DNA from: Bacteroidia bacterium
GTDB lineage: Bacteria; Bacteroidota; Bacteroidia; DATLTG01
Assembly: GCA_039924845.1 (NCBI GenBank)
Contig: JBDTAC010000086.1
Span: 1-64,000 of the forward strand
Direction of reading: 5' to 3'
DNA length: 64,000 nucleotides
Shown in pieces: positions 52,755-62,043 of the stretch. The notes under the pieces were generated by a model that was not told the DNA's origin, made no database searches, and saw only the letters and a list, made by a program, of their open reading frames with translations. How positions within the stretch are numbered: position 1 is the stretch's first letter; each line of letters opens with the position of its first letter. Made by a program: the position numbers and the translations under genes.

Positions 52755-53675
52755 TTATTGAACTTGCGCTTGGCTTCCGTTTCGAGTACGTGTGGCGAAT
52801 TTAATACCAATCATTAGTTCGTAGGTTCCACTGCTGTATTTGCGGATATCAGTAGTAGTAAAATCGTACGCGAAGCCGAACATCAAATTCTTTTTAACAG
52901 TATATCCAATCATCGCCGAAATAGCATCCATGGTACGGTAATCAGCACCTATCCACATTTGGTCTTGATAAATAAGTCGCAAACCTGCATCCACTTGTAC
53001 GGGAGCCGGATACACATATTTCACCATCGTGGTGGGTTGTAAATCAAAGTTATCTGATAATTTAATTTTATAGCCTGCTGTGGCATAGTAATGAGTAGCA
53101 AGGTCGCTAAGCGGGGTGTTGGTATTATCGAAAAACTTTAATTTGTCTTGCAACAACTGTGGTGCAGACACACCCAAGTAAAAACGGTCGGAGTATAAGT
53201 ACATACCAAAGGCAAAGTCAGGTACTAATGTGGACTGCAATTGATCGCTTAACACTAAATCACCTGGATCACGCAATGTTATTTTAGAACCATCAATGGC
53301 AAATTGTTGTAGCCCTGCAGATAACCCAAAAGACAATCGTAAATTTTCTGATAATCGGATATGATAGGCATAACTGGCTTCAAAACCTGTTCTTCGGGTA
53401 GGACCTGTATTATCGGTATAGAGGTATCCTCCTAATCCCATGTTTTTCCCTCTCCAAGGTCCGTTCACACTAAGCGTATATGTTCGGGGCGCATCTGTAA
53501 TGCCTTCCCATTGGTATCTATTATTAGAAGCTGCTTCGTAATAAGGCAATGTTCCTGCTACTGCAGGATTTAGTACAAAATCATTCATCATGTACTGACT
53601 AAACATAGGTAGCTGCTGAGCTTGTACTTTCACAAAGCCAATTACTAATACGAGCAATACGATACGTTTTTTCAT
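52755..53675 (-). CDS. PorP/SprF family T9SS outer-membrane protein
   Basis: A 306-residue beta-barrel protein with signal peptide (LLVLVIGFVKVQAQQ). The N-terminal QLPMFSQYMMNDFVLNPAVAGT is the hallmark of the PorP/SprF family. It lies 10 bases after the giant SprB-like gene, the sprB-sprF order. In Flavobacterium, SprF is needed for SprB export and attachment, so this protein most likely serves the adhesin next to it. The last part (LMFGFAYDFTTTDIRKYSSGTYELMIG) is typical of the family. Confidence 0.93.
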   Translation of the reverse strand: MKKRIVLLVLVIGFVKVQAQQLPMFSQYMMNDFVLNPAVAGTLPYYEAASNNRYQWEGITDAPRTYTLSVNGPWRGKNMGLGGYLYTDNTGPTRRTGFEASYAYHIRLSENLRLSFGLSAGLQQFAIDGSKITLRDPGDLVLSDQLQSTLVPDFAFGMYLYSDRFYLGVSAPQLLQDKLKFFDNTNTPLSDLATHYYATAGYKIKLSDNFDLQPTTMVKYVYPAPVQVDAGLRLIYQDQMWIGADYRTMDAISAMIGYTVKKNLMFGFAYDFTTTDIRKYSSGTYELMIGIKFATRTRNGSQAQVQ

Positions 53676-53685
53676 CTTCTTATTT

Positions 53686-56600
53686 TTAACGTAGTATGGT
53701 TATAGGTCCTGTATATACATTAGGGAATCGAGGATCGTTCAGATTAATAATGTAATAATAGGTTCCAACTGGTAATGGCTTGGCATTATAAGTACCATCC
53801 CATTTGGTGATGTATCCAGGAGAACTAAATAGTAATTCGCCCCAACGATTATATATCTCAACCAAACATTTTGGGAAATATTGGATGTTATCAATAATCC
53901 ACGTATCGTTTTTACCATCTCCATTCGGTGTAATCCCATTCGGGAAGCTGATTTCAGGTAATACAGTAATTGTTACAGAGTCTCTTTCAGAACAACCGCT
54001 CGCATTGGTAACAGTTACCGTATAAGTAGTTGTTGTAAGAGGTGTAGCAACTGGATTAGCAGCTGTTGAATCGCTCAATCCTGTTGTAGGATGCCAAGAA
54101 TATGTAGAGCCCGGAGGGCCGGTAGGACTGCCTCCAATAGTTATACTTGTATAGATGACTATTGTTTGATTAGCTCCCATATTGACAACTGGTAAAGGAT
54201 TAGAAGTAACAGATACAGTATCCGCATCTGGACAAGTTCCGTTGGTAGCAACTACTACATAATCCGTAGTACCTGTTGGTGGATTTACTGAAACTGATTG
54301 CGTATTGGCAATAAGTACCATGCCCGGTAATTGAAACCATTGGTAAGTTAATCCACCTACATTTCCAGTTGCTTTTAGTGTAATATTTCCAGATTGACAG
54401 AAAGAAGTGTCGTTTCCAGCTTCTACCAAAGTGGTAACAGCGGCGGTTACTATTGCACTGTCTTTAATACTACATCCGTTTGCGTCCGTTACCGTAAGAA
54501 TGTAATCGCCTGGTAAAATATTCATTAGACTTTGTGTGGTAGCCAATGAGCTTCCAGACCATTGGAAAGAGTATGGAGGAGTACCGCCGCCAACGGTTTC
54601 CGTGATAGAGCCATTATTTGCGGTATTACAAGCGGTGTTTACTACTATATGGGAAACTGTGATTGGAGTTGGGTTAATAAGTATAAATGTTTGTTGCGGA
54701 GTAGCACAACCGTTGGCATCCGTAACTGTAACCGAATAGGAACCAGCACATAAATTACTGGCTGTAGCAGTGGTGCTAATGGCTGGGTTCCAAACGTACG
54801 TAAACGGCAGTGTGCCTCCAGAAGGAATCACTGTAATAATACCGTTACAAGAACCAGCACACTTAGGTTGAGATACAAATGTCTTACTAAATGTAATGGA
54901 TGTTGGTGTTGTGATTGTGAATACGAGTGTACGCACGCAGCCTGCATTGTCCGTTACTTTCAGAGAATAATTTCCAGCACACAATCCATTATCGGTAGCA
55001 CCTATTTGACCGTTACTCCATGAATAAGTATAAGGAGAAACTCCGCCGCTGACCATTGCAGTGGCTGATCCGTTACAAGTACCATTGCACGTAATATTAG
55101 TAGTAGTAATATTTACTGTTGGGCTTGTCGGGTTATTGACTGGAATTGCAAAAGTTTGTTTACAACTCGATGCGTCCGTTACTGTTACGGTGTATGTTCC
55201 GGCACAAAGGCTGTTAATTGTCGCTGTGGTTTGAGCTCCCGGAGCCCACAAGTATGTATAAGGCGCTGTGCCACCCATTGGATTCACCGAAATACTGCCG
55301 TTACAAAGTCCGCAAGGAGTACTGCTTACACTTTGATTGATTGTAAAAGCCTGATTGGATGTTATAATGACTGTTTTAATAGTTGAGCAGCCCGCTGAAT
55401 CAATTACTTGTACATTGTAGATGCCAGCACATAAACTATTTACCGAATTGGTTGTTTGTCCACCTGGTATCCATAGATAAGTGTATGGAGCACTTCCTCC
55501 AGAAGGAATGGCAGTAGCAGTTCCGTTGCAAGTTCCAAAACAAGTGGCATTTGTAGATGTAATCGTTACGGTTGGACCTCCGCTACTGTTTACCGTAATT
55601 GTTGTTGTGGAAGTACACCCTTTGTTGTCCGTAATATTTACATCATATACGCCAGCGCAAAGTCCGTTTGCGGAAGAGCTTGTTTGTCCGCTACTCCACA
55701 TATATGTATAAGGAGCAGTTCCGCCAGAAGGCGCAAGTGTTATTTGTCCGTTACACATTCCACAAGTAGAAGCTGTAACAGTAGGATTTGCAAGTATTGT
55801 TGAGTTTTGTAGTATGGTGGCTAATCCAGCTGCTGTACAACCGTTCGCATCCGTAACAGTTACGGTATAATTACCAGCACACAAGGCGCTTGCTGTTGCA
55901 GTGGTTTGAGATTGAGAATCATTCCATTGGTAAGTATAAGGACTTGATCCACCAGCGGGTGTTATCGTTGCAGAACCATTGCAGATCCCATTACATCCTG
56001 CAGGCACAACACTTACAGGAGCTGTTAAAATAGTTGTTGGTACAATTGCAACCGAATCTTTAAATGTACACGCATTTGCATCTGTAATATTATAAACATA
56101 TTCTCCCGGACACAAATTAGAAAGCGAAGATGTAGTTTGTCCTGTATTCCATGAATAGGTATAAGGCAACGTTCCTCCAGAAACAGTGAGAGTAATAGAT
56201 CCATTGCAAACTCCCGCGCAAGTTGCTTTCACAGTCGTAGGTGTAGTATTGAGCGGTCCTGGTTGTACAATAGTAGTACTGTCAATTCGGATACATCCAT
56301 TCGCATCCGTTATTTGAACGAAATATTTTCCCGCACATAAATTGGATACTGCATTGGATGTTTGCCCACCTGGTGTCCAAGAATAGGTATATGGAGAAAC
56401 TCCCCCAGAAGGAACATCTGTAATTGTTCCGTTGCAGGATCCATTACAAGAAACATTCGTTTGAGTCATCATATCTCCTGAAGGTCCACTCGAATTACTT
56501 AATGGAATTACAAGTTTGCTCGAACAGCCATTTGCATCTGTAACAGTTACCGTATAAATACCCGCACACACATTGTTAATAGTGGAAGTTGTTTGTCCTC

Positions 56601-59600
56601 CAGGAATCCACGAGTAAGTGTAAGCGCCAACTCCTCCGGAAGGAACAGCTGTAATGGCGCCGTTACAGGTACCGCAATTTGCGGCAGCAGTTGTCGGTGT
56701 TATCGTAAGAACAGAAGGGTTTGCAATCGTAACCATTTCTGTGTCGGCACAAGAATGTGCATCGGTAACAATAAGAGTATATATACCAGCACACAATCCG
56801 TTTATGTTTTGCGTAGATTGGTTTCCAGGTAACCATTGATACGTGTATGGAGAAGTACCTCCAATGGGATTAGAAGATGCTGTCCCATTACAACTTCCAA
56901 CACAAGAGGGGTCAGTATGAGTAATGTTTTCAGTAATTGGTAATGGTGCTGTGATTGTTACGTTTTGATTGGCACTACATCCATTCGCATCCGTTACAAC
57001 CAGATTATAGGATCCAGGACAAAGATTATTTGCATTTTGAGTAGTTTGTCCATTACTCCAAGAATACGTATAAGGACTTGTTCCACCAGTTACAGTCGGA
57101 TTAGCCATTGCATCACAACTGGCATTACAACTTACCACAGCATTAGGAATAGTAATTGCTATTTTAGCGGGTTGTGTAATAACAACTGTATTTTGTGACG
57201 TACAACCATTCGCATCTGTAACCGTAAGTGTATAAGATCCGGCACAAAGAGTATTGACATTTTGAGTGGTTTGTCCGCTTGTCCAAGAGTAAGTATAAGG
57301 GCTTGTTCCACCAGTTACAGTTGGATTAGCCGTCCCATCACATGATAAATTACACTTTACATTTGTATAAACAACAGAAGAAGAAAGTAAAGGAGGTTGT
57401 GTAATAACAGCTTGCTGCGTAACAGTACATCCATTGGCATCTGTAACTGTGAGCGTGTAAGTACCAGGGCATAGATTTACATCACTTGGTTGTGTGGCTC
57501 CATTCGACCAACTGTATGTATAAGCCCCTGTTCCACCTGTTACATTCGCTGTTGTTTTCCCATTGCAAGAACCATTACATGTTACGTTGGTAGCAGTGAT
57601 TATTACACTAAGAGCAGTTGGTTGCACAATATTTATCACCACAGCCGTATCACATCCTTTTGAATCCGTAATGGTAACACTGTATGTCCCAAAAGAAAGA
57701 TTATTTGCCACAGAGGTAACGGATACGCTTGGATTCCAAGCATACGTGTACGCAGAAGTACCTCCTGTAGGACTAAAAGAGATTGACCCATTATTACCAC
57801 CATTACAAGATGGAGAGACAACAGTTGCGTTTGGAGATATTTTTAAAGGAGTTGTAACGGTAATAGTATCGAACGACATACATCCAGAAGCATCTGTCAC
57901 TTTTGCGATATACAATCCCGAGCAAAGATTTGAAATCGAGTTGGTTGTTTGTCCTGCTGGCGACCAAGAATAAGTGTATCCCGGATTTCCGCCACTAGCA
58001 GTTACCGTTGCAGTACCATCGCAAGAACCATTACATGAAACAGGGGTGAATCCTCCTATTAAAACGGGTCCAGTGACATTACCTACGGCTATTTGAAATA
58101 CTTTTACACATCCAGCAGCATCTGTAATGCTAACCGTATAAATGCCTGCCACGATATTTGTTATAGAAGAGGTTGTTTGTCCTCCTGGCGACCATAAATA
58201 GGTATATGCAGGTACCCCACCAGTAGGAGCCAAGGTAATACTTCCATCATTCATCGAACAATCTGCTTTTACAACCGTTGGATTATCTGCTATCGGCGGA
58301 GCTTGGATTATCTTAACGCTATCAATAGCACTGCACCCATTCGCATCTTTTACCGTTACTAAATAAGTACCTGCACAAAGGCTATTTATAGACGACGTTG
58401 TTTGTCCACCTGACCAAGAATAGGTATAGGTTCCTGTACCTCCAGAAGCTGTTACAGTACCTGTACCATTACATCCTCCGTTGCATGAAATATTAGTTTG
58501 ACTTGTATTTAAAGTAAGTTGTGGTGGATTAGAGAATACCACAGTTGATGTATTAAAACATCCATTTGCATCCGTCGCAGTGATAGTATAGGTTACCCCA
58601 GAGCACAAGCCAGTAGCTGTTTGCGTTGTCTCTCCACTTGGATTCCAACTATATGTGTAAGGAGATACTCCTCCTGCAGCATTTGCAGTGGCTGTTCCAT
58701 CGCAGGAATTAAAACAACTCACACTATTGGATGAACTGGTAATAATAATATTAACTGTTGGATTAATAAGAATTGCTTTACTTGCTATACATCCATCTGC
58801 ATCCTTTATTGTAACAGTATAACTTCCAACACATAACGCCGTAGCATTCGCCGTTGTTTGCCCATTAGACCAAGAATAAGTATATGGAGAAGTGCCTCCA
58901 ACAGCTGTTACAGAAGCAGATCCATTACATATATTACAACTCGACGTAGTGGATGTAACAGAAACAGAAAGCAGTGTAGGCTGTGTTATACTGAAATTGG
59001 CTGTAATAAAACAACCATTTGCATCCGTTACCTTTAAAGAATATCCATTCCCAGCGCAGAGGTTTAAAATGCTGTCTGTTGTTAAACTTCCAGGCATCCA
59101 TAAATACGTATATGGAGCAGTTCCTCCAGTTACTGTTGGCACTGCTTTTCCATCACAAGTGCCAGAACAACTTGCATTTTTTACGACAATAGCTACATTA
59201 AGCGGTTGAGGTGCTATTAATGTAACCGTCGCAGAATCCTTGCATCCATTTGCATCGGTTACAATCACCTTATAGGTTCCGGCGCACAAATTGTTTATTG
59301 TCGCTGAAGTTTGACCTCCTGGCGACCAAGAATATGTATAGACTCCTGTCCCACCTGAGGCAACAGCGTTTATAATCCCGTCGCACTTTCCGTTACAAGA
59401 AGGAGGAGTATTGGTCGTTAATAATGACAGTAAAGGCGATTGAGTGATAGTAACACTTGTATTCGCAGTACAACCATTTGCATCTGTAACTGTAAGAGAA
59501 TAAGTTCCGGCGCACAGACCTGACAATGTAGGAGTTGTTTGCGCTCCAGGCGACCATGAATAAGTATATCCAGCCGTTCCTCCATTTACATTGGAAGAAA

Positions 59601-62043
59601 TGCTAGCATTACAATTTCCATTACATGCTATGATTGCAGGACTTGGAGTAATCCCAACTGTTAAAACATTAGGTTGAGTAATTTTAACCTTTCCAGTTTG
59701 AGTACACCCGTTAGCATCCGTAACGGTTACGGTATATGTTCCAGCGCATAAATTAGCTACTGAAGAAGTTGTTTGTGCACCAGGCGACCAAGAATAAGTG
59801 TATCCAGGTGTCCCACCAGAAGGATTGGCTGTTACAGAACCGTTGCAAGCCCCATTACAAGATATATTTGTACCTGTTGGACTTACGGTCAAAACAGGAG
59901 GAGGGATAAGTGTTATACTTTGAGAGCTAGTACAGCCATTGACATCCTTAACCGTCAATACATAAGTGCCAGCACAAAGTCCAGATATGGCAGATGTTGT
60001 TTGTCCACTGGACCATGAATAAGTATAAGCTGGAGTCCCTCCACTTGTAAAATCAGTTATGCTACCATTACAAGAACCGTTACAAGTTATTTTTACTAAC
60101 ACCAGTGAATCTTTGAGTGGGGCTGCTGGTTGAACAATTGTAACTGATTGTGTCCCCGTACATCCATTAGCATCTGTAACAGTTACGGTATATATGCCCA
60201 GACATAAATTAGATATAGAAGAACTTGTTTGCGCTCCAGGCGACCAAGAATACGTATATGCTCCTGTTCCTCCAGAAGGCAAGGAAGACGCTGTGCCAGT
60301 ACAACTTCCAAAACATTTTACATTTGTACTTGTTGCATTCGGGTTAATTTTAGCTGGTTGAGTGATATTGAAGGATGCCGTTGCGCTGCAGCCGTTTGCA
60401 TCTGTTACGGTTACACTGTATGTCCCAATACAAAGAGTAGCAGCACCTGTTCCTACTACAGTACTTGGTGTCCATGAATACGTGTAAGGTGCTGTGCCTC
60501 CTGAAACAGGTGCTACTGAAACGGAACCGTTGCACAAACCAAAACAAGTTACATTACTGCTGGAGGGGGTTAAAATAAGTTTAGGAGGTTGCGTAATCAG
60601 AACAGTGGCTGTTCCTGAACAAAGGGAATCATCTTTAACTGTTATGGTATAAGTTCCAGGACATAAATTAGAAATACTTTGTGTTGTTTGTCCGTTTGAC
60701 CAAGAATAGGTATAAGATGGATTATTTCCTCCTGTGGGTGCACAAGTGGCCGTTCCATTGCAAAAGCCATTGCAAGTAACATTCGTAAAAGTAGGATTCG
60801 GGGCAATTGGAAGAGGTTGCGTTATGGTAGCAGAGGAAGTAGATGTGCATCCATTGGCGTCTGTTGCTGTTATCGTATAGCCTCCTGCACACAAATTAGT
60901 GGCACTGTAAGTTGTTTCTCCACTTGGAAACCACGAATAAGCATATGGAGTTACCCCTCCCGAAAAAGAAATACTAATACCTCCATTGCAGTCTCCAAAA
61001 CAAGTAGGCTTCTTCTTGATTGCTGTATTGGGCAACAATTGGCTTGGCACAGTAATCACAAATCTAAAATTATATTTTGTGCTGCCATTTCCAAGATCTG
61101 TTACAACAAATGCGTAATTTCCAGCACAAGCATTGTTAAGCGTATCTCCACTTGCATTCGGAGGACCAATCCATTGATAAGTATATGGACCAACTCCTCC
61201 TATGATATAAACCGCAAATGTAATAAGTTGCCCATTGCATTGTCCATTACAAAGTGGATCTTTATATTTGATATGGATACTATCACTACCAGGTAAATCG
61301 AAAAGTGTCACATTACTATACCCTCCTGATTGAGTAGTATTGGAAAAAACGATTCTGCTTAAGCTAAATGTAGTGTGAGTAATATTATAATTGGAAATAT
61401 TTCCGCTGCCGCTGAAAGCTGCCGTTAAACAAACGGCTGAATTTGCTAAATTTAGACTTTTGTGAAGTGCATTTGGAGGAGCATTTATCAGGGACGCATC
61501 AATTAATTGTCCGTTAGAAATAAAATTTCCAGCAATAAGGTTAATCGAATGATTTCCTCTAAGTACAAGCGGATTATTTAAACTCCAAGAACCATACGCA
61601 TTATCAAAATAAACATCGCTTGTTAGCGATTCAGAAGGGTCAATATTAATGATATTTCCAGTATATCCCGATTTAAAATAAATACTTCCTAAAAAATTAT
61701 TTTTTAAATCGGATGAAATATTTAATGAGCCGTAAATGTTTAGTTTATCTGTTGCTGTGCCTTGTAAAACAGGATAGAGTATATTGTTTGTGAAAACTAA
61801 ATTCCGGCAATTTACTGAGCCGCTTATTTGCACAGTCTCATTACCCCAATTAAAAGAGTTCTTATCGAAAAAAACATTGTCGTTGGCTGTCGGAACAAAA
61901 AAACCATGTATTCCTCCGCTTGTTGCAGACCAATGCGAAGCATCCGTCCACGAACCCGAACCACCTATCCAATAAAGATTTCCTGCATAACTGCTGAAAA
62001 GAAAAGAAAAGAAAAGAAGGGCTGAGAGTATGTGTTTTTTCAC
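53686..62043 (-). CDS. Giant SprB-like adhesin with about 30 SprB repeats and T9SS type B end
   Basis: A 2785-residue surface protein. It starts with a signal peptide (ILSALLFFSFLFSSYAG) and a beta-helix-like N-terminal region (to about residue 260). About thirty SprB repeats of about 75 residues follow (roughly 265-2530), with the pattern C-N-G-x-C-N-G, GGTxPYTYSWSNGQTT, LCAGTYTVTVTDANGC. Then come an Ig-like segment (VEAGNDTSFCQSGNITLKA) and a gliding-associated C-terminal domain (FPNGITPNGDGKNDTW, LVEIYNRWGELLF, GTYYYIINL). This type B tail and the PorP/SprF gene 10 bases downstream point to export by T9SS and a role in gliding or adhesion. Confidence 0.95.
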   Translation of the reverse strand: MKKHILSALLFFSFLFSSYAGNLYWIGGSGSWTDASHWSATSGGIHGFFVPTANDNVFFDKNSFNWGNETVQISGSVNCRNLVFTNNILYPVLQGTATDKLNIYGSLNISSDLKNNFLGSIYFKSGYTGNIINIDPSESLTSDVYFDNAYGSWSLNNPLVLRGNHSINLIAGNFISNGQLIDASLINAPPNALHKSLNLANSAVCLTAAFSGSGNISNYNITHTTFSLSRIVFSNTTQSGGYSNVTLFDLPGSDSIHIKYKDPLCNGQCNGQLITFAVYIIGGVGPYTYQWIGPPNASGDTLNNACAGNYAFVVTDLGNGSTKYNFRFVITVPSQLLPNTAIKKKPTCFGDCNGGISISFSGGVTPYAYSWFPSGETTYSATNLCAGGYTITATDANGCTSTSSATITQPLPIAPNPTFTNVTCNGFCNGTATCAPTGGNNPSYTYSWSNGQTTQSISNLCPGTYTITVKDDSLCSGTATVLITQPPKLILTPSSSNVTCFGLCNGSVSVAPVSGGTAPYTYSWTPSTVVGTGAATLCIGTYSVTVTDANGCSATASFNITQPAKINPNATSTNVKCFGSCTGTASSLPSGGTGAYTYSWSPGAQTSSSISNLCLGIYTVTVTDANGCTGTQSVTIVQPAAPLKDSLVLVKITCNGSCNGSITDFTSGGTPAYTYSWSSGQTTSAISGLCAGTYVLTVKDVNGCTSSQSITLIPPPVLTVSPTGTNISCNGACNGSVTANPSGGTPGYTYSWSPGAQTTSSVANLCAGTYTVTVTDANGCTQTGKVKITQPNVLTVGITPSPAIIACNGNCNASISSNVNGGTAGYTYSWSPGAQTTPTLSGLCAGTYSLTVTDANGCTANTSVTITQSPLLSLLTTNTPPSCNGKCDGIINAVASGGTGVYTYSWSPGGQTSATINNLCAGTYKVIVTDANGCKDSATVTLIAPQPLNVAIVVKNASCSGTCDGKAVPTVTGGTAPYTYLWMPGSLTTDSILNLCAGNGYSLKVTDANGCFITANFSITQPTLLSVSVTSTTSSCNICNGSASVTAVGGTSPYTYSWSNGQTTANATALCVGSYTVTIKDADGCIASKAILINPTVNIIITSSSNSVSCFNSCDGTATANAAGGVSPYTYSWNPSGETTQTATGLCSGVTYTITATDANGCFNTSTVVFSNPPQLTLNTSQTNISCNGGCNGTGTVTASGGTGTYTYSWSGGQTTSSINSLCAGTYLVTVKDANGCSAIDSVKIIQAPPIADNPTVVKADCSMNDGSITLAPTGGVPAYTYLWSPGGQTTSSITNIVAGIYTVSITDAAGCVKVFQIAVGNVTGPVLIGGFTPVSCNGSCDGTATVTASGGNPGYTYSWSPAGQTTNSISNLCSGLYIAKVTDASGCMSFDTITVTTPLKISPNATVVSPSCNGGNNGSISFSPTGGTSAYTYAWNPSVSVTSVANNLSFGTYSVTITDSKGCDTAVVINIVQPTALSVIITATNVTCNGSCNGKTTANVTGGTGAYTYSWSNGATQPSDVNLCPGTYTLTVTDANGCTVTQQAVITQPPLLSSSVVYTNVKCNLSCDGTANPTVTGGTSPYTYSWTSGQTTQNVNTLCAGSYTLTVTDANGCTSQNTVVITQPAKIAITIPNAVVSCNASCDAMANPTVTGGTSPYTYSWSNGQTTQNANNLCPGSYNLVVTDANGCSANQNVTITAPLPITENITHTDPSCVGSCNGTASSNPIGGTSPYTYQWLPGNQSTQNINGLCAGIYTLIVTDAHSCADTEMVTIANPSVLTITPTTAAANCGTCNGAITAVPSGGVGAYTYSWIPGGQTTSTINNVCAGIYTVTVTDANGCSSKLVIPLSNSSGPSGDMMTQTNVSCNGSCNGTITDVPSGGVSPYTYSWTPGGQTSNAVSNLCAGKYFVQITDANGCIRIDSTTIVQPGPLNTTPTTVKATCAGVCNGSITLTVSGGTLPYTYSWNTGQTTSSLSNLCPGEYVYNITDANACTFKDSVAIVPTTILTAPVSVVPAGCNGICNGSATITPAGGSSPYTYQWNDSQSQTTATASALCAGNYTVTVTDANGCTAAGLATILQNSTILANPTVTASTCGMCNGQITLAPSGGTAPYTYMWSSGQTSSSANGLCAGVYDVNITDNKGCTSTTTITVNSSGGPTVTITSTNATCFGTCNGTATAIPSGGSAPYTYLWIPGGQTTNSVNSLCAGIYNVQVIDSAGCSTIKTVIITSNQAFTINQSVSSTPCGLCNGSISVNPMGGTAPYTYLWAPGAQTTATINSLCAGTYTVTVTDASSCKQTFAIPVNNPTSPTVNITTTNITCNGTCNGSATAMVSGGVSPYTYSWSNGQIGATDNGLCAGNYSLKVTDNAGCVRTLVFTITTPTSITFSKTFVSQPKCAGSCNGIITVIPSGGTLPFTYVWNPAISTTATASNLCAGSYSVTVTDANGCATPQQTFILINPTPITVSHIVVNTACNTANNGSITETVGGGTPPYSFQWSGSSLATTQSLMNILPGDYILTVTDANGCSIKDSAIVTAAVTTLVEAGNDTSFCQSGNITLKATGNVGGLTYQWFQLPGMVLIANTQSVSVNPPTGTTDYVVVATNGTCPDADTVSVTSNPLPVVNMGANQTIVIYTSITIGGSPTGPPGSTYSWHPTTGLSDSTAANPVATPLTTTTYTVTVTNASGCSERDSVTITVLPEISFPNGITPNGDGKNDTWIIDNIQYFPKCLVEIYNRWGELLFSSPGYITKWDGTYNAKPLPVGTYYYIINLNDPRFPNVYTGPITILR

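Follow-up and report, generated by a model that had tools for sequence, protein, structure and literature searches.

The window, a 64,000-nucleotide stretch of a Bacteroidia genome, encodes a long adhesin of SprB repeats whose cysteines, judging by their covariation and predicted geometry, are very probably paired so as to lock the chain into a ladder: an obligatory disulfide staple would join the first cysteine of each repeat to the fourth cysteine of the next (C1(n)-C4(n+1)), and an optional second staple would join the second and third (C2-C3). Here C1 and C2 are the cysteines of the motif C-N-G-x-C-N-G, C3 is that of LCAG (ACAG or VCAG in a few window repeats) and C4 is that of NGC. The SprB fold and family are already known. 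The geometry of the ladder was predicted from the Ig-like fold and the window before other genomes were searched: such a fold should hold C1, C2 and C3 at one pole and C4 at the other, which would leave C1 and C4 of a single repeat too distant to bond but bring C1(n) and C4(n+1) together at the junction.

The open reading frame (ORF) can be divided, in order, into an N-terminal signal and region, 30 SprB repeats, two Ig-like domains and a CHU_C domain (Table 1). Its match to the Pfam SprB profile (PF13573) scores 757.5 bits against a curated cut-off of 28 and comprises 29 stretches, followed by an Ig_7 domain (PF19081) and by a PKD-like match that falls below its own cut-off. The CHU_C match (PF13585; 85.1 bits, residues 2699-2770) identifies the product as a type IX secretion substrate. 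The next gene downstream, on the same strand, encodes a PorP/SprF-family protein; such proteins are the usual partners of type B C-terminal-domain adhesins, and this neighbour is likely to be the anchor of the SprB-repeat adhesin. GldK is also encoded in the host genome. The neighbouring SprF homologue contains zero cysteines and lacks the twin-cysteine C-terminal tail by which SprF bonds GldK in the SprB-SprF-GldK chain. Since this homologue has no cysteine, the protein need not be the gliding adhesin, and we refer to it as a SprB-repeat adhesin and not as SprB; it may have an anchor without being connected to the gliding track. The host genome is the sole member of its family and order among the genomes searched, and represents an isolated Bacteroidota lineage.

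Table 1. Features of the SprB-repeat adhesin and its neighbouring gene; positions are those of the window, and all features lie on the minus strand
Feature	Position	Strand	Description	Basis
PorP/SprF-family outer-membrane protein	52755-53675	minus	282.6 bits	PF11751
SprB-repeat ORF	53686-62043	minus	2785 aa, GTG start	
CHU_C type IX secretion signal domain (type B CTD)	53734-53949	minus	E 3.7e-24	PF13585
Domain 32 (PKD/Ig-like)	53962-54177	minus		Pfam and AlphaFold2 model
Domain 31 (Ig_7-like)	54178-54444	minus	Lacks C2 and C3	Pfam and AlphaFold2 model
Array of 30 SprB repeats	54445-61278	minus	74-79 aa each; aa 256-2533	
Repeat 1	61042-61278	minus	Has C1, C2 and C3; lacks C4	Repeat carving
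Repeat 11	58756-58977	minus	C1-C2 as CxxC	
Repeat 14	58075-58299	minus	Lacks C2 and C3; has C1 and C4	Repeat carving
Repeat 16	57619-57846	minus	Lacks C2 and C3; has C1 and C4	Repeat carving
Repeats 17-19	56944-57618	minus	Modelled with 85 related triplets; mean pLDDT 97.8	AlphaFold2
Repeat 21	56488-56715	minus	C1-C2 as CxxC	
Repeat 25	55582-55803	minus	C1-C2 as CxxC	
Repeat 27	55129-55353	minus	C1-C2 as CxxC	
Repeat 30	54445-54669	minus	Lacks C2 and C3	Repeat carving
Cys265, C1 of repeat 1	61249-61251	minus	Predicted partner Cys399	Pairing rule
Cys399, C4 of repeat 2	60847-60849	minus	Predicted first inter-repeat staple, with Cys265	Pairing rule
Cys2472, C1 of repeat 30	54628-54630	minus	Predicted partner Cys2604	Pairing rule
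Cys2549, C1-like, domain 31	54397-54399	minus		
Cys2604, C4-like, domain 31	54232-54234	minus	First residue of strand G	AlphaFold2
Cys2684, C4-like, domain 32	53992-53994	minus	Directly before strand G; domain has no C1	AlphaFold2

A first-pass annotation of the window had counted roughly 30 repeats, of which three appeared to lack both C2 and C3. Carving the array gives exactly 30, and the joint absence is confirmed in repeats 14, 16 and 30, while the other 27 keep both cysteines; were the three losses of C2 and the three of C3 scattered over the 30 repeats independently of one another, they would hit the same three by chance once in 4,060. Some variation is seen around this pattern. Four repeats (11, 21, 25 and 27) have CxxC instead of CxxxC for C1-C2, with C3 and C4 unchanged, and repeat 3 contains a fifth cysteine, Cys434 (60742-60744), which lies in strand B and has no evident partner. 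A sister ORF of 2781 aa (L188, in genome G034) has the same architecture, with 30 repeats of which the first lacks C4; its repeats without C2 and C3 are 11, 16 and 30, as against 14, 16 and 30 in the window.

The search profile used for other genomes was built from the 30 window repeats. The first set of sequences comes from 189 sources (the window, other loci of the host genome, genomes of the same class and 80 named loci) and contains 2,381 non-redundant repeats; the second, independent set comes from 84 further loci and contains 1,089 repeats. Together they form 338 runs and 3,470 repeats from many Bacteroidota, of which about 97% carry C1 and about 97% carry C4, against ~22% for C2 and C3. 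Mean-field direct coupling analysis (mfDCA) was applied to 3,118 adjacent repeat pairs, and 4,900 inter-repeat and 2,145 intra-repeat couplings were ranked. The SprB profile scores above its curated cut-off in 204 of 246 sampled genomes of the class. A viral structure search also returned proteins annotated with, or resembling, SprB repeats in uncultured Caudovirales, Virus NIOZ-UU157 and Yasminevirus.

Extending the count to these genomes leaves little doubt about the association of C2 with C3: both are present in 760 of the 3,470 repeats, neither in 2,701, and only 9 are discordant. The phi coefficient of their co-occurrence is 0.991 in the first set (2,381 repeats) and 0.997 in the second (1,089), and shuffling C3 within arrays gives a mean of 532 mismatches (minimum 481) against 7 observed. 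C2-C3 is also the top-ranked of the 2,145 intra-repeat couplings, and the two residues lie at the same pole of the Ig-like fold predicted by AlphaFold2. The intra-repeat C2-C3 disulfide that had been proposed from the window is thus strongly supported by co-occurrence, coupling and a shared pole in the predicted fold, and the covariation predicts such a bond inside 27 of the 30 window repeats. The apparent cases of C2 without C3 are mostly other Ig-like domains in which a single C1-like cysteine had been misaligned; among those of C3 without C2 are repeats that have a different cysteine in the loop following strand C.

It might be supposed that the cysteines are reduced or bind a metal, and that they co-occur because they form one site. 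The C1-x-x-x-C2 motif does resemble the spacing of metal-binding sites, and the host genome contains no known Dsb or VKOR oxidant: searches for DsbA, DsbB, VKOR and Thioredoxin_4 gave no match in this genome, which is 99% complete and encodes an adhesin with 120 cysteines. However, C2 and C3 are gained and lost without effect on C1 or C4. Other loci contain rare cysteine pairs (columns 23-46, 56-70, 54-72 and 42-47) that are mostly present as pairs and are apparently alternative intra-repeat disulfides; columns 56-70 and 54-72 share an antiparallel F-G register (56+70 = 54+72), a behaviour typical of interchangeable disulfides. A reduced or metal-bound state is therefore very unlikely.

By elimination, the first-pass annotation had placed a C1-C4 bond inside the same repeat as C2-C3, which is the simplest assignment for four cysteines per repeat, both C1 and C4 being present in about 97.5% of repeats. 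Elimination, however, left the adjacent repeat out of account. Within one repeat, C1 and C4 are lost almost independently of each other (5 joint against 177 single among the 3,470 repeats; odds ratio 2.1, p = 0.1), and all 5 joint losses fall in isolated units of one or two repeats that keep C2-C3 and need no staple. Across junctions the picture is very different. Among the 3,132 junctions of the pooled sets, C1(n) and C4(n+1) are both kept in 3,071 and both lost in 20, while C1(n) is kept without C4(n+1) in 6 and C4(n+1) without C1(n) in 35, giving an odds ratio of 292 for joint loss (p = 3e-32). A scan of offsets from -3 to +3 in the first set gives a phi of 0.47 at +1 and at most 0.065 elsewhere. 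The +1 signal recurs in the second set, where offset -1 is also enriched; this additional enrichment stems from proteins cut into two-repeat segments (L245, L247 and L259), each segment of which begins without C4 and ends without C1. Within-array shuffles matched the observed joint loss in 0 and 5 of 2,000 trials for the first and second sets, respectively. In the coupling analysis, C1(n)-C4(n+1) ranks first among all 4,900 inter-repeat couplings, whereas C1-C4 inside one repeat ranks only 234 of 2,145.

The predicted fold points in the same direction. Coevolving pairs (7-69, 7-71, 9-71, 9-73, 12-73 and 12-75) place strand A (columns 7-15) parallel to strand G (columns 69-75), so that C1 (column 14) would lie beside the end of strand G and C4 (column 65) at its start. 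Couplings 29-61 and 30-63 bring the B-C loop and the F-G turn together at the opposite pole, and the A-B loop (column 17) is coupled with the E-F loop (column 52). In an AlphaFold2 model of repeats 17-19, read for its confidence and secondary structure, C1 is in the A-B loop, C2 and C3 immediately precede strands B and F, respectively, and C4 immediately precedes strand G; the strand order agrees with the coevolution map. The C-terminal pole is thereby predicted to hold C1, C2 and C3, whereas C4, some eleven strand residues away, would lie at the N-terminal pole. The coevolution map, and with it the structure prediction that had been suggested as a check on the original pairing, thus separates C1 from C4 of the same repeat, with strand G running between them. 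In a second model, which covers repeat 30 and the two domains that follow it (pLDDT 91.8), all three C4-type cysteines sit where strand G begins, and the C1-type ones fall in the A-B region.

The junctions at which C1(n) is missing and C4(n+1) is kept provide a further line of evidence. A linker cysteine is found in 31 of these 35 junctions, as compared to 0 of the 20 in which both C1(n) and C4(n+1) are missing (p = 2e-11); the background, in junctions with both C1 and C4, is 22 of 3,071. The replacement cysteine precedes the C1 position by 10-18 residues, which puts it in the linker or in the first part of strand A; from there it can, on the predicted fold, reach C4 at the same pole. Only 10 of the 3,132 junctions are left that break the rule (6 with C1 alone and 4 with C4 alone). 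When clustered at 60% identity, the junctions comprise 17 clusters of joint loss, 20 of compensation and 8 of violation. An assignment with C1-C4 as well as C2-C3 inside one repeat, which would also leave Cys265 and Cys2684 of the window protein unpaired, is highly improbable in the face of these observations.

A ladder in which C1(n) is bonded to C4(n+1) makes predictions about its two ends. In the window array, C4 is missing only from repeat 1, which has no preceding SprB repeat. The first-pass annotation had noted this absence correctly, but had read it as a weakness of the C1-C4 pairing; because the presence of C4 depends on C1 in the repeat before it, an inter-repeat ladder is expected to begin with a domain that lacks C4, and repeat 1 would be the ladder start. 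The same is seen in other genomes: among 89 repeats that have lost C4, 63 stand first in their run, 20 come directly after a repeat without C1 and 6 are unexplained. A cysteine occurs within the preceding ~100 aa for 148 of 149 first repeats that have C4, but for 22 of 36 that lack it. At the downstream end, a cysteine in the C4-like slot of the domain after the array is found for 220 of 238 ends with C1 and for 16 of 26 ends without C1, a weaker trend than at the start, with many of the C1-less ends followed by unrelated domains. In the window, domain 31 is predicted to continue the ladder and domain 32, which has no C1, to end it. The rule predicts 31 staples (C1 of domains 1-31 with C4 of domains 2-32) which, together with 27 C2-C3 pairs, would use 116 of the 120 cysteines of the ORF with no C1, C2, C3 or C4 left over; the cysteines outside the predicted pairs are residues 79, 205, 434 and 2726. 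That block-duplicated repeats merely carry the same cysteine states, with no bond implied, is barely credible as an alternative: duplication does spread states, as the correlated C2 and C3 states of neighbouring repeats (phi ~0.6) indicate, but it does not explain a single near-perfect register for C2-C3 (0.99 within the repeat against 0.6 at other offsets), two rules that within-array shuffles fail to reproduce, 17 independent clusters of joint loss, the distribution of linker cysteines (31/35 against 0/20) or the loss of C4 at first repeats.

The inter-repeat ladder can be pictured as follows. The ORF product would be a long surface protein, exported by type IX secretion and built of tandem Ig-like SprB repeats, with the adjacent PorP/SprF protein as its probable anchor. 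Each repeat n would present C1 at its C-terminal pole, in the A-B loop, for bonding to the C4 that repeat n+1 presents at its own N-terminal pole, in the F-G turn, and such a staple at each junction would lock the domains into a continuous ladder that begins at a domain without C4 and finishes at a domain without C1. The optional C2-C3 staple, gained or lost as a unit, would connect two loops of one pole, A-B and E-F. The ladder may prevent the domains from swivelling or being pulled apart, with load running along a covalently cross-linked fibre. The rules of co-occurrence, those for the ends of the array, the replacement cysteines in the linker and the geometry drawn from coevolution are observed, whereas oxidation of the cysteines in the finished protein and the mechanical role are inferred. 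Beyond the window, we consider it likely that SprB-repeat and related Ig-like surface proteins across Bacteroidota form end-to-end disulfide ladders of this kind, with start and stop signals and with an alternative capping cysteine at interruptions.

SprB repeats are very common in the surface proteins of Bacteroidota, among them the adhesins through which gliding force is transmitted. Should each repeat be covalently stapled to the next, the stiffness of the fibre, how well it withstands pulling and how it folds while being exported by the type IX system would have to be reconsidered, and repeat constructs for experimental work should be cut so as to leave no C1 or C4 unpaired. The ladder rule is sharp enough for disulfides to be annotated from sequence, and provides a prediction for thousands of proteins; if true, it would describe a general route to load-bearing, covalently cross-linked adhesin fibres. 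It also means that dozens of cysteines in every molecule would have to be oxidised, by an enzyme or otherwise, in a genome with no recognisable Dsb or VKOR system.

The closest known relatives are within the SprB family itself (PF13573), which includes the gliding adhesin SprB of Flavobacterium johnsoniae and to which the window array belongs. The Flavobacterium arrays have the same C1/C4 ladder, without C2/C3 among the matches listed. We did not find a published disulfide assignment of SprB repeats in the open-access literature. Among known structures, searching PDB sequences with a pair of adjacent repeats yielded nothing beyond weak matches to unrelated Ig-like proteins, and the best relative by profile and fold search is the grappling-hook protein GhpA of Aureispira (9FLP, 9FLS and 9FLW). 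Like the window protein, GhpA contains tandem Ig-like domains of a Bacteroidota surface protein, and one stretch of it has a C4-like NAQGC followed 27 residues on by a C1-like PIC, a spacing as in SprB repeats; unlike the window protein, it shares only ~24% identity and is not made of SprB repeats proper. Given this C4-C1 spacing, the deposited 9FLS and 9FLW models may already show the bond, and GhpA is the main prior-art risk for the predicted ladder.

Covalent bonds of other kinds are known in related machinery and in other adhesins. In F. johnsoniae, the twin-cysteine tail of SprF bonds GldK, and the SprF-GldK and PorG-PorK disulfides are load-bearing parts of the type IX secretion and gliding machinery (PMC12635249). 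These disulfides join different proteins at the outer membrane, whereas those predicted for the window protein are inside the adhesin chain. Among Gram-positive Ig-like adhesins, the giant adhesin of Mobiluncus mulieris has isopeptide, ester and disulfide links within a domain (PMC10619420) and, as is predicted for the window protein, is a long tandem Ig-like fibre stabilised by covalent cross-links. The links in Mobiluncus are intra-domain, while the predicted main link of the window protein would join successive domains.
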